Positions 20,940-26,471 of a stretch of DNA of 64,000 nt are shown one piece after another (position 1 is the first letter of the stretch; each line of letters opens with the position of its first letter). Origin of the DNA: Streptomyces sp. NBC_01463 (GTDB lineage: Bacteria; Actinomycetota; Actinomycetes; Streptomycetales; Streptomycetaceae); contig CP109468.1 in NCBI GenBank assembly GCA_036227345.1, forward strand, positions 1,240,001 to 1,304,000. The letters run 5' to 3'. The translations under genes and the position numbers were made by a program. The notes beneath the pieces were generated by a model. It was not told the DNA's origin. It made no database searches and saw only the letters and a list, made by a program, of their open reading frames with translations.

Positions 20940-21122
20940 GGCGCTGGAAGCTAACCCACGGACCGCGCCCCGTCCAGGGTGCGTCATCCGTAAGGGGGCA
21001 GGTGATCACGCAGCGGTGTGCGGTGACGCAGCTCACGCCGTGCCCCGGTGCACGGATCGGCGCGTTCCGTCGTCTCCATGAGTGCCGGGAACCGTCCGTC
21101 CCGTCGCGAGAGGGAGCAGGTC

Positions 21123-21539
21123 TTGTCCATCGTTATCGAACAGTCCGTGCAGGCCCGCATGGTCGCATCCGCACCGCAGATGGAGACCCTTCCCGCCGTC
21201 CTGAGCTACGACCGCACGGATCCCTTCGCCGTCCGCATGGCGTTCCCCGCGCCGGCGACACTGGAGGGCACCGAGGTGTCCTGGGCGTTCTCCCGGGAGC
21301 TGCTGGCGGCGGGGATGGACGGACCTGCGGGGGTCGGGGACGTACGCATCAGGCCCTTCGGGTACGACCGCACAGTGTTGGAGTTCCACGCCGCCGAGGG
21401 CATCGCGATGGTGCATGTGCGGACGGCCGAGCTGCGCCGTTTCCTGCGGCGCGCGCAGGAGCTGGTGCCTTCCGGCGACGAGCGGCGCTTCCTGGGGCTC
21501 GACCGGAGTCTGACGGACCTGCTCGACGGTTCCTGCTGA
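21123..21539 (+). CDS. SsgA-family sporulation/cell-division regulator (SALP)
   Basis: SsgA-like protein of 138 residues, a family found in sporulating actinomycetes that positions division and peptidoglycan machinery in aerial hyphae. Diagnostic stretches are YDRTDPFAVRMAFP, WAFSRELLAAGM and GDVRIRPFGYDRTVLEFH. A TTG start at 21123 with GGGAG 6 nt upstream gives the normal family length; the upstream ATGs add residues not seen in the family. Which SALP it is cannot be decided. A hairpin terminator follows immediately. Confidence 0.88.
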   Translation: MSIVIEQSVQARMVASAPQMETLPAVLSYDRTDPFAVRMAFPAPATLEGTEVSWAFSRELLAAGMDGPAGVGDVRIRPFGYDRTVLEFHAAEGIAMVHVRTAELRRFLRRAQELVPSGDERRFLGLDRSLTDLLDGSC

Positions 21540-21544
21540 CCCGG

Positions 21545-21562
21545 GGCCCCGCCGACGGGGCC
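21545..21562 (+). terminator. Hairpin terminator of the SsgA-like gene
   Basis: GGCCCCG-CCGA-CGGGGCC, a 7-bp perfect stem with a 4-nt loop, begins 5 bp after the stop codon. It separates the SsgA-like transcript from the promoter of the ABC-F gene that starts 11 bp further on. Confidence 0.6.
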
Positions 21563-21572
21563 GTGGCGCGTC

Positions 21573-21610
21573 AAAAACGGCTTGCCCCGCTGCGGGGCCG
21601 GCCGTACCTT
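21573..21610 (+). promoter_or_regulatory. WhiB7/WblC-type promoter of the ABC-F gene
   Basis: AAAAA at 21573-21577 lies 4 nt before TTGCCC (21582-21587); TACCTT follows after a 17-nt spacer (21605-21610). A short A/T run just upstream of a -35 element is the hallmark of promoters activated by WhiB7 (WblC in Streptomyces), whose regulon includes ABC-F resistance genes. Expected transcript start is near 21617, giving a leader of about 238 nt. Confidence 0.65.
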
Positions 21611-21641
21611 CGTTGTTGTCCTTGTCGTCGCCGATAGGAGT

Positions 21642-21734
21642 AGGACGTTGCTCGTCTGAGGTCTTGAGACACCGTGTCGCACGCCGTGCCATGTCCGCGT
21701 GCCCGAGTGTGACCTCAGCTCTCCGAGCCGTCCT
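21642..21734 (+). promoter_or_regulatory. Long leader stem enclosing the uORF (attenuator)
   Basis: Three complementary blocks nest in register: AGGACG 21642-21647 with CGTCCT 21729-21734, GCTCG 21650-21654 with CGAGC 21724-21728, and CTGAGGTC 21656-21663 with GACCTCAG 21711-21718. That is 19 perfect pairs interrupted only by small bulges. The uORF lies wholly within the 5' arm, so a ribosome on it would open the stem. The rest of the 315-bp gap (21735-21854) holds a terminator-like hairpin and the ABC-F ribosome-binding site. Confidence 0.6.
21648..21659 (+). CDS. Three-codon upstream ORF (uORF) of the ABC-F gene
   Basis: TTG CTC GTC TGA would encode fMet-Leu-Val. AGGAG at 21636-21640 sits 7 nt upstream, a near-ideal spacing. 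Very short uORFs that sense ribosome-targeting antibiotics are known for several ABC-F genes. The position inside the long stem supports a regulatory role. Confidence 0.5.
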   Translation: MLV

Positions 21735-21761
21735 CCGCGACCAGGGCCTTCCTTCTCCGCT

Positions 21762-21784
21762 TCCGGATTCCTTCCGGATTTCTT
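21762..21784 (+). terminator. Intrinsic terminator in the ABC-F leader
   Basis: TCCGGA at 21762-21767 and 21773-21778 (self-complementary, 6-bp stem, 5-nt loop) followed by TTTCTT. A hairpin with a U-rich tail inside a leader, 70 nt ahead of the start codon, suggests premature termination as the control point. The stem is short, so termination strength is uncertain. Confidence 0.5.
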
Positions 21785-21854
21785 GCGTGGAACGCCAGTG
21801 GCCGGTGTCTCGCCCCGTTGCCCCTGTCCTTCCTCGCAACCGGGAGATTTCCTT

Positions 21855-23486
21855 ATGTCAACCCCGCTCACACACATCACCTGCTCGTCGCTGTCCTTCT
21901 CCTGGCCCGACGGCAGCCCGGTGCTCGACGACTTCCATCTGACGGTGGGACCCGGCCGTACCGGGCTCATCGGGCTGAACGGCTCGGGCAAGTCGACCCT
22001 GCTGCGGCTGATCGCCGGTGAACTCACCCCCTCAGAAGGCCACATCAGGACGGCGGGCGAGATCGGCTATCTGCCGCAGAACCTGGTCCTGGACACCGCG
22101 TTGCGCGTCGATGAGGCACTGGGCATCGACGGGACCCGTGCGGCACTGCACGCCATCGAGGCGGGCGATGTCGGCGAGGAGCGGTTCGCCGCCGTCGGTG
22201 ACGACTGGGACGTGGAGGAGCGGGCGCTCGCCACGCTCGACCAGCTCGGTCTCGGTCACATCGGGCTCGACCGCACGATCGGCGAGATGTCGGGCGGCGA
22301 GTGCGTGCTGCTGCGGCTGGCCGCCCTGCTGCTGGCCCGGCCCGACGTCCTGCTGCTGGACGAGCCGACGAACAACCTGGACCTGTACGCACGCGGCCGC
22401 CTCTACGCGGCGGTCGACGCGTGGCACGGCGTCCTCGTCGTCGTCAGCCACGACCGCGAACTCCTGGAGCGGGTCGACCAGATCGCCGACCTGCGGGACT
22501 CCTCGGTCGCCTGGTACGGCGGAAACCTCTCGGCGTACGAGGAGGCGCTCGCGGTGGAGCAGGAGGCCGCCGAGCGCATGGTGCGGGTCGCCGAGGCCGA
22601 TGTGCACCGGCAGAAGCGCGAACTCGCCGAGGCCCAGGTCAAGCTGGCCCGGCGCAAGCGCTACGGGCAGAAGATGCAGGAGAGCAAACGCGAACCGAAG
22701 ATCGTCATGGGCGCCCGCAAGCGCTCCGCCCAGGAGTCGGCGGGCAAGCACCGCATCATGCACGCGGGGAAGCTGGCCGAGGCGAAGGAGCGCCTCGACG
22801 ACGCTGTCGAGGCGGTGCGGGACGACGACGAGATCAGGGTCGAACTGCCGCACACCAAGGTCCATCCGGGCCGCGGCGTGCTGCTGCTGAGCGGTCTGGA
22901 ACTGGCCTACGGGGCTCGGGTACAGGGCTCGTTCGAGGTGCGCGGTCCGGAGCGCATCGCGCTGGTGGGACGTAACGGAGCGGGCAAGACCACTCTGCTG
23001 CGGACCCTGGCCGGCGAGCTGGCACCGGTGTCCGGTGAGGCGTCGGTGGAGGTGCCGATGCGTTTTCTGCCGCAGCGGCTGGATGTGCTCGACGACGAGC
23101 TGAGCGTGGTGGAGAACGTGGCGCGGTTCGCACCGGACGCCACGGACAACCGCGTCAGGGCGCGGCTGGCTCATTTCCTGTTCAGGGGGGCACGGGCCGA
23201 CCGGCCCGCCGGGACCCTGTCGGGCGGCGAACGGTTCCGTGCGGCTCTGGCCGCGCTGCTGCTGGCCGAGCCGGCGCCTCAGCTGCTGATGCTGGACGAG
23301 CCGACGAACAACCTCGACATGGCGAGCGTGCGCCGGCTGACGGCGGCACTCGATTCGTACGAGGGGGCGCTGATCGTGGCGAGCCACGACGTGCCGTTCC
23401 TCGAATCGATCGGGATCACACGCTGGCTGTTGCTCGACGGCGGACTCCGGGACACGACGGCCGAGGAGGTGCGCACCGGGCTGTGA
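21855..23486 (+). CDS. ABC-F family ATPase, antibiotic-resistance type
   Basis: 543-residue protein with two ATPase domains and no membrane segments, of the class that protects ribosomes from antibiotics bound at the peptidyl-transferase centre or exit tunnel. Domain 1 has Walker A GLNGSGKST (40-48), signature MSGGE and Walker B LLLDEPTNNLD. The charged interdomain linker (about residues 225-345, rich in RKRYGQKMQESKREPK) forms the P-site arm. Domain 2 has GRNGAGKTT, LSGGE and MLDEPTNNLD. ATG 21855 follows GGGAG; an in-frame ATG at 21699 falls within the leader and is rejected. The promoter, uORF and terminator in the leader support antibiotic-induced expression. The drug class is unknown. 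Confidence 0.92.
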   Translation: MSTPLTHITCSSLSFSWPDGSPVLDDFHLTVGPGRTGLIGLNGSGKSTLLRLIAGELTPSEGHIRTAGEIGYLPQNLVLDTALRVDEALGIDGTRAALHAIEAGDVGEERFAAVGDDWDVEERALATLDQLGLGHIGLDRTIGEMSGGECVLLRLAALLLARPDVLLLDEPTNNLDLYARGRLYAAVDAWHGVLVVVSHDRELLERVDQIADLRDSSVAWYGGNLSAYEEALAVEQEAAERMVRVAEADVHRQKRELAEAQVKLARRKRYGQKMQESKREPKIVMGARKRSAQESAGKHRIMHAGKLAEAKERLDDAVEAVRDDDEIRVELPHTKVHPGRGVLLLSGLELAYGARVQGSFEVRGPERIALVGRNGAGKTTLLRTLAGELAPVSGEASVEVPMRFLPQRLDVLDDELSVVENVARFAPDATDNRVRARLAHFLFRGARADRPAGTLSGGERFRAALAALLLAEPAPQLLMLDEPTNNLDMASVRRLTAALDSYEGALIVASHDVPFLESIGITRWLLLDGGLRDTTAEEVRTGL

Positions 23487-25493: not shown

Positions 25494-26471
25494 GTGACGA
25501 TCACCTCTCCCCACCTCGGCAGTTCACAGGCGTGGACCGACGCCCAACTGCTGTACGCGCTGGAAGAGGTGGTGGAGAAGGAACTCAACCGCCATCTCAA
25601 GGTCGCCAAGGACTGGATGCCCCACGAGTACGTGCCGTTCTCCGACGGCCGGAACTTCCCCGGCATCTTCGAGGACGGCCAGGCCTGGGAGGCCGAGCAG
25701 TCCAAGGTCACGGACATCGGCAAGATCGCCCTCGTGGTGAACCTGCTGACCGAGGACAACCTCCCCAGCTACCACCACGAGATCGCCTCGCTCTTCGGCC
25801 GCGACGGCGCCTGGGGCACCTGGGTGCACCGCTGGACGGCGGAGGAGGGCCGCCACGGCATCGTGATGCGCGACTACCTCCTCACCTCGCGCGCCGTGGA
25901 CCCGGACAAGCTGGAGCAGTTCCGGATGGCGCACATGGCGGAGGGCTTCGAGTCCGACAACCGTCACTCGATGCTGCACTCCGTCGCCTACGTGGCGTTC
26001 CAGGAGCTGGCCACCCGGGTCTCGCACCGCAACACGGGGCACCAGTCGGGCGACCCGGTCTGCGACCGCATGCTGGCGCGGATCGCGACCGACGAGAACC
26101 TGCACATGGTGTTCTACCGCAACCTCCTGGGCGCGGCCTTCGAGCTCGCCCCTGACCTGACGATGCAGTCCGTGCGCGATGTCGTCGTGAACTTCCGGAT
26201 GCCCGGCCACGGCATGCCCGGGTTCGAGCGGGCCGCCGCCCAGATGGCGATCGGCGAGATCTACAACATGCGGATCCACCACGACGACGTCATCCAGCCG
26301 GTGCTGCGCTACCTGAAGGTGCTGGACATCGACGGTCTGGGCCCGGAGGGCCTCCAGGCGCAGGAGGAGCTCGGTCTGTACATGAACGGGCTGGACAGCG
26401 AGGCGTCGAAGTTCGACGAGAAGCTCGCCGCGCGCAAGTCGCGCATGGCTGCCCGCGCCGCCCAGGCCTGA
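25494..26471 (+). CDS. desA: Acyl-ACP desaturase (stearoyl-ACP type di-iron enzyme)
   Basis: Soluble di-iron desaturase of 325 residues that introduces a cis double bond into acyl-ACP or acyl-CoA, using ferredoxin electrons and oxygen. Iron ligands are in place: E87, E118-G-R-H121 (EEGRH), E171 and E201-N-L-H204 (DENLH). There is no membrane segment, in keeping with the plant-type soluble family. GTG at 25494 follows CAGGAG. It is a single gene with its own operator array and a strong terminator. Confidence 0.93.
   Translation: MTITSPHLGSSQAWTDAQLLYALEEVVEKELNRHLKVAKDWMPHEYVPFSDGRNFPGIFEDGQAWEAEQSKVTDIGKIALVVNLLTEDNLPSYHHEIASLFGRDGAWGTWVHRWTAEEGRHGIVMRDYLLTSRAVDPDKLEQFRMAHMAEGFESDNRHSMLHSVAYVAFQELATRVSHRNTGHQSGDPVCDRMLARIATDENLHMVFYRNLLGAAFELAPDLTMQSVRDVVVNFRMPGHGMPGFERAAAQMAIGEIYNMRIHHDDVIQPVLRYLKVLDIDGLGPEGLQAQEELGLYMNGLDSEASKFDEKLAARKSRMAARAAQA

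Follow-up and report, generated by a model that had tools for sequence, protein, structure and literature searches.

A predicted are5sc-type attenuator upstream of an ABC-F gene in Streptomyces sp. NBC_01463 and the candidate base pairings of its switch

In Streptomyces sp. NBC_01463, a gene for an ABC-F ribosome-protection protein is preceded by a leader that carries an upstream open reading frame (uORF) of three codons, and this raises the question of how a ribosome on so short a frame could switch the gene on. We analyzed the leader within 64,000 nucleotides of contig CP109468.1 (assembly GCA_036227345.1, positions 1,240,001 to 1,304,000 of the forward strand). This whole stretch is called the window; coordinates are those of the window, and features lie on its + strand unless stated otherwise. 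The gene (21855-23486) encodes a protein of 543 amino acids in which the Pfam model ABC_tran was matched in two stretches, and these two ABC domains place the protein in the ABC-F class. Its top NCBIfam model was NF000355, with a score of 343 bits that is below the 380-bit cut-off of that model. At E <= 1e-60, a threshold that by itself mixes orthologues with paralogues, 146 of the 150 Streptomyces genomes had a match to the protein. Directly 5' of the leader is a gene of the SsgA family (21048-21539; Pfam PF04686, E 1.7e-30). In S. coelicolor, the ssgD gene, which we take to be SCO6722, presumably lies close to SCO6720.

The gene is almost certainly an orthologue of are5sc (SCO6720), based on the features of its leader and a published description. 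According to a report in mBio of August 2025, the leader of S. coelicolor are5sc is 232 nt long and carries a Met-Leu-Val uORF that starts with TTG and is overlapped by an LRS/MRS frame (PMC12421871). The orthology is near certain because the window shares the uORF and the overlapping frame, in a predicted leader of ~238 nt, and because the genome has a separate TiaA-like gene (L209, G000:C1:8572871-8574493), whose product is 53% identical to the window protein. The leader peptide of this second ABC-F gene, MVGDDDISG, is exactly that published for TiaA, and the window ABC-F is thus distinct from TiaA. The protein match at L209 was flagged as having one TGA inside it. Another DNA match in the same genome (L002) was rejected as a second leader, as it lies reversed within another gene, by eye probably one for a peptidyl-prolyl isomerase. 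The antibiotic-sensing leader of the window gene is a system already published, in 2025, in S. coelicolor; in the literature found, it is PMC12421871 that describes the leader, for the S. coelicolor gene. Any novelty may be confined to the predicted anatomy of the switch, namely two pairings that we call P:P' and B:B'. There was no Rfam match within the leader at gathering thresholds. Elsewhere in the window, the Rfam antisense RNA ASdes (RF01781) was matched with 66.7 bits at 25845-25912 on the - strand, antisense within an ORF (25494-26471) whose product we presume to resemble an acyl-ACP desaturase; this match may represent either an RNA or conserved coding sequence.

The uORF, TTG-CTC-GTC-TGA (Met-Leu-Val, 21648-21659), is by its sequence the counterpart of are5scL1, for which an S. 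coelicolor toeprint has been published. It and its Shine-Dalgarno (SD) sequence AGGAG (21636-21640), 7 nt 5' of the uORF and conserved in our alignment of leaders (A1), were found where the original prediction had placed them. That prediction did not list the overlapping frame CTG-AGG-TCT-TGA (LRS, 21656-21667), the sequence counterpart of are5scL2, or either of the pairings P:P' and B:B'. To determine how widely the uORF is conserved, we compared 111 upstream regions. These come from the 80 best of at least 579 named relatives, from the top 30 among 150 Streptomyces genomes, and from the window, which is counted twice (L001 and L083); close relatives are over-represented, since the loci found by protein were taken from the top of the score ranking. 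The sequence TTGCTCGTCTGA was letter-perfect in 92 of these regions. The remaining 19 had close variants, among them MLF, MQI, MKV, MRY, and the four-codon MLHI, and in one the stop codon was lost.

A larger set comprised 174 distinct leaders (180 minus six duplicates), of which 105 were found by protein, 65 by a DNA pattern, and 4 by place; L161 was dropped for lack of the motif 5' of its ABC-F match. In this set, the invariance of the start codon and of the stop block is in part an effect of selection: the DNA pattern included TTG and TCTGAGG and tolerated one mismatch, and the locating script likewise required TTG, for which none of the first 111 regions was dropped. The uORF had three codons in 172 of the 174 leaders, which together encode 15 different peptides. 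A constant length with a variable peptide is what would be expected of stalling at the start codon, before any peptide bond is made. Within the family, 77 of 121 genomes had the uORF pattern (up to one mismatch), among them 22 of 28 Streptomyces genomes, compared to 13 of 121 for the reversed control, and the motif was 5' of an ABC-F match in 65 of the 66 loci fetched at pattern matches. A class-wide protein search had a match in 27 of 148 genomes (E <= 1e-150). Six class-wide loci of one other family (L190, L192-L196) keep the TTG layout, with the peptides MRI, MEF, MKL, and MEL; the layout was absent from several more distant class-wide ABC-F loci.

Additional variations were observed in some relatives. 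A related leader with GAGGTGGACGTTG was present in L114, L160, L163, L164, L190, L192, and L207, whose ABC-F proteins are 60-70% identical, and it encodes MRI in five cases and MLI in two. An ABC-F relative from another family, L205, has GTG-AAG-CTC-TGA (MKL) followed by GGTCC, with no obvious SD, and its leader is perhaps a distant form of the are5sc type judging from these letters. A functional role for the LRS frame was considered and rejected, as the frame is present in only 94 of the 174 leaders and PMC12421871 reports translation of only L1 and tiaAL.

What the uORF senses is known from S. coelicolor, where ribosomes are held at the start codon of the Met-Leu-Val uORF by lincosamides, streptogramin A, and pleuromutilins, all of them inhibitors of the peptidyl-transferase centre (PMC12421871). 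Transcription of are5sc rises with these drugs, and a transcriptional fusion of the leader is drug-inducible (PMC12421871). The original prediction had also named macrolides as inducers. This is unlikely, because erythromycin caused no stall on the are5sc uORF in the published toeprints (PMC12421871).

The uORF lies inside a stem, A:A', the 5' strand of which (A, 21642-21663) comprises an SD-proximal block, the uORF codons, and a stop block, and the 3' strand of which is A' (21711-21734). As originally predicted, the stem has 19 pairs in three in-register blocks of 6, 5, and 8 pairs (21642-47/21729-34, 21650-54/21724-28, and 21656-63/21711-18). RNAalifold recovered only 5 pairs from alignment A1, which holds 68 of 107 representatives, and so we counted the 19 pairs directly. 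The window pairs were formed in 87.1% of cells across the 68 aligned leaders, and 10 of them had double changes. On each of five measures, 0 of 500 shuffles were as high as the real stem. Slid controls had 22.5-45.5% of cells paired, up to 8 double-change pairs, and covariation scores of up to 0.092 versus 0.119 for the real stem. The original prediction had staked the stem on covariation, and covariation was found. Of the three blocks, that at the uORF stop was the strongest (97.1%); L132, L152, and L181 carry compensated changes.

Besides this stem there are two further candidate pairings. Counted from the first base of the uORF start codon, the segment B (GAGACACC, 21666-21673) begins 18 nt further on, and its complement B' (GGTGTCTC) is at 21804-21811, immediately 5' of the ABC-F ribosome-binding site. 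As a 30S toeprint lies 16 nt downstream of a start codon (PMC9226507), B begins about where a start-stalled ribosome would end. At least 8 contiguous B:B' pairs were present in 149 of 174 leaders; 118 leaders beat all 20 of their own shuffles, and 302 of 3480 shuffles reached the observed score. Compensated changes occurred in L026, L116/L123, L125/L127, and L157/L158, with a different matching sequence in L114. Separately, we noted a differently sequenced B:B' pairing in L114, L160, L163, and L164. The second pairing, P:P', joins the first nucleotides of the predicted transcript (P, 21618-21628) to a segment 3' of the uORF stem (P' GCGACCAGGGC, 21737-21747), and these are the proposed 5' and 3' arms of a terminator.

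The first score tests of B:B', P:P', and a hairpin beside the ABC-F SD were weak or uninformative, with 629 of 1520 shuffles reaching the observed score in the wide-region test of P:P'. After these, we ran a test of duplex energies in which the partners within a leader were compared with those from other leaders. This covered 152 leaders for A:A', 149 for B:B', and 146 or 145 for P:P', as 22 of the 174 leaders were without a findable A' and were excluded from the A:A' and P:P' tests. Own partners were favored in A:A' (p = 1e-19), with co-adaptation in all three of its blocks, in B:B' (p = 3e-8), and in P:P' (better in 100 of 146 leaders, p = 3e-7), these p-values being inflated by relatedness, for which wrong-partner controls are the only guard. 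The four wrong-partner controls had no own-partner advantage in duplex energies, P against a wrong region among them. For B the preference was uneven: in the 38 leaders with a non-canonical B, the canonical B was better in 25, the leader's own in 12, and there was 1 tie, and a leader's own B was the best among all B's in only 1 of 174. Overall, the sequence comparisons support three co-adapted pairings, A:A', P:P', and B:B'.

We consider it very probable that the locus is an orthologue of the published are5sc attenuator with these three pairings forming its switch, as follows. When no drug is present, the uORF would soon be vacated and A:A' would form; P:P' would stack outside A:A' to make a single long terminator, with B kept inside the stem. 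In the presence of drug, the ribosome would occupy A, with its leading edge just 5' of B, and A:A' would be blocked, such that the terminator closes poorly and transcription reads through. In the read-through transcript, B would then pair with B' and the region 5' of the ABC-F start would be remodelled. A more specific reading, which we put forward tentatively as somewhat short of probable, is that the sensor is itself the terminator: about the first 10 nt of the transcript would close round the uORF stem, a ribosome inside would disable it and expose B to remodel the gene start, and the same elements would serve in two versions of the switch, a long one that acts on transcription and a short one that acts on translation.

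Folding predicts that B:B' forms once a ribosome occupies the start codon. Among the 149 leaders with a helix of at least 8 bp (the other 25 of 174 were left out), the mean probability of B:B' was 0.19 for the free leader, 0.77 for a start-stalled ribosome, and 0.02 for one on the stop codon, and it exceeded 0.5 in 31, 123, and 1 leaders, respectively, although this contrast is partly built in because the stop mask overlaps B and the start mask bars A:A'. In the window, the start-stalled probability depended on the mask, being 0.07 with a narrow one and 0.67 with a wider one.

Could the leader act mainly on translation? The uORF and ABC-F initiation regions would then mask each other, stalling would free the ribosome-binding site, and termination would be minor. 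This draws on a group of short leaders that have no A'; the window has the long version. We folded 12 of these (L048, of the same type, was left out), and in 9, judged by eye (L016, L044, L061, L063, L090, L094, L098, L109, and L167), GAGGTC in the uORF stop region is folded against a GGCCTC between the ABC-F SD and ATG. As the stop region thereby folds onto the ABC-F initiation region, it points to translational control in these leaders, and B:B' was mostly present in them with or without a ribosome. From these folds, the short leaders are apparently a compact, translational version of the same switch. Moreover, a possible hairpin (CCCGTTGC/GCAACCGGG, 21814-21844), seen in the alignment, adjoins or overlaps the ABC-F SD of the window (GGGAG, 21842-21846), and the VmlR and CplR leaders combine transcriptional and translational levels (PMC9226507, PMC10201436). 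However, the GGCCTC partner is absent from the window, the predicted accessibility of the ABC-F SD was nearly unchanged by stalling (mean 0.14 to 0.19 in 134 leaders, 40 of the 174 being left out), and it is a transcriptional fusion of are5sc that is drug-inducible (PMC12421871). The shuffle test of the SD-adjacent hairpin was uninformative, with 722 of 1740 shuffles reaching it. We therefore regard a mainly translational switch as unlikely in the window, with perhaps a minority chance of being correct.

The original prediction of where transcription would stop differs from ours. It had the same sensor, with termination outside the uORF stem at a 6-bp hairpin, TCCGGA-N5-TCCGGA followed by TTTCTT (21762-21784). 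The window does contain the hairpin and its T-rich tract, which also appear in the full-length fold, but among 174 leaders they are present in one, the window itself, and they are missing from relatives whose ABC-F proteins are 93-94% identical. The hairpin is probably non-functional on this comparison and was rejected as the terminator, so that a leader terminating near 21784 is very improbable; drug stalling and attenuation, the other part of that claim, stand on the published S. coelicolor evidence (PMC12421871). We propose P:P', the outer pairing of the switch set out above, as the better candidate from the sequences compared. It was already visible in the first fold of the window, and it is followed by a pyrimidine tract (21748-21758) that is a U-tract in some other Streptomyces. 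Runs of at least 5 T occurred in 14 of the 148 leaders with an exact GACCTC, and the window has CTTCCTTCTCC, a poor U-tract. When those 14 leaders were folded only as far as the run, the conserved 5' end, as read by eye, paired with the segment before the tract in 13 of 14 folds and enclosed the uORF stem; among these 13, L077 has a 4-nt gap, and the pairing was missing in L118. A local five-pair hairpin, GUCCU/AGGGC, was discarded as terminator because folds up to the U-tract favored P:P'. The fraction of T 3' of the P' arm was 0.303 versus 0.204, and higher in 108 of 145 leaders (p = 3e-11, inflated by relatedness). The motif CAGG[GC] was at the expected place in only 72 of 148 leaders. In static folding with a ribosome mask, the mean P:P' probability went from 0.51 to 0.41 (lower in 62 and higher in 27 of 145 leaders), and in the window it did not drop (0.72 to 0.75). 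With so small a decrease under the mask, thermodynamics by itself does not predict that the terminator is lost, and we infer that stalling spoils it kinetically, by way of a long loop that holds a ribosome.

The promoter of the leader is of the WblC/WhiB7 type. In that motif, an A/T-rich box lies 3 bp 5' of the -35, the spacer is 16-19, and the -10 is TANNNT (PMC7157823). The window has AAAAA (21573-21577) 4 nt 5' of the -35 hexamer TTGCCC (21582-21587), or, when read as AAAAAC, a match by eye of 5 in 6 to GAAAWY at 3 bp, and a -10 hexamer TACCTT (21605-21610) at 17-nt spacing. From the 7-8 bp rule given in PMC7157823, the transcript is predicted to start at ~21617-21618. A scan that allowed spacers of 16-18 matched the promoter in 159 of 174 leaders, of which 106 have a 17-nt spacer and 53 an 18-nt one. 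In these 159, positions -8 to -5 before the -35 were 92-100% A/T, versus 32% in the background, and in 126 there were 65-67 nt between the -35 and the uORF. The A-tract, coordinates, and spacing that had been predicted thus hold, and are5sc belongs to the WblC regulon (PMC12421871). That this promoter alone regulates the gene, with the uORF and stem incidental, might be argued from the strong A/T box and regulon membership, but it is extremely improbable given that in S. coelicolor a fusion carrying just the promoter was constitutively active with no antibiotic present, the leader fusion was drug-induced and the uORF toeprints were drug-dependent (PMC12421871), and that the leader is conserved and covarying. 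In the switch that we propose, the WblC-type promoter would be a second layer of control.

Comparison with known attenuators places the window closest to are5sc, with which it has in common a TTG Met-Leu-Val uORF, an LRS/MRS frame, and a similar leader length, and with which it would share the ARE5 type of ABC-F gene, WblC regulation, and transcriptional attenuation; set against the published description, no difference in kind was found. The VmlR leader of Bacillus subtilis also has a three-codon uORF in its first stem-loop, responds to the same drug class, and combines transcription attenuation with an SD-sequestering hairpin, both of which the window may also have (PMC9226507). Its uORF stem, however, works as an anti-antiterminator, with termination at a separate hairpin, whereas the uORF stem of the window seems to form the terminator core itself, closed by the 5' end of the transcript. 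CplR of Clostridioides difficile has a three-codon uORF with transcriptional and translational attenuation together, and its drugs are expected to show little context-specificity, as here (PMC10201436); its host is of a different phylum, and the likeness is one of description rather than leader sequence or structure. The uORFs of VmlR (MIN), VmlR2 (MK[L/Q]), and CplR (MR[I/M]) are precedents for three codons, and so the sensor is not unusually small, contrary to the original prediction. Ribosome-mediated attenuation also controls the Streptomyces ARE5 genes tiaA (SCO0636; PMC12421871) and lmrC (PMC8546547). They differ in that tiaAL has nine codons (MVGDDDISG) and tiaA seems to be translationally controlled (PMC12421871), and in that translation of uORF2 is needed for the lmrC terminator to form, as its authors suggest (PMC8546547).

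These data extend a sensor published in one species to many Streptomyces and their relatives, in which the length of the uORF is kept and its peptide is not. The pairings P:P' and B:B' are specific base-pairing predictions, and they would explain how a ribosome parked on a start codon switches the ABC-F gene on.
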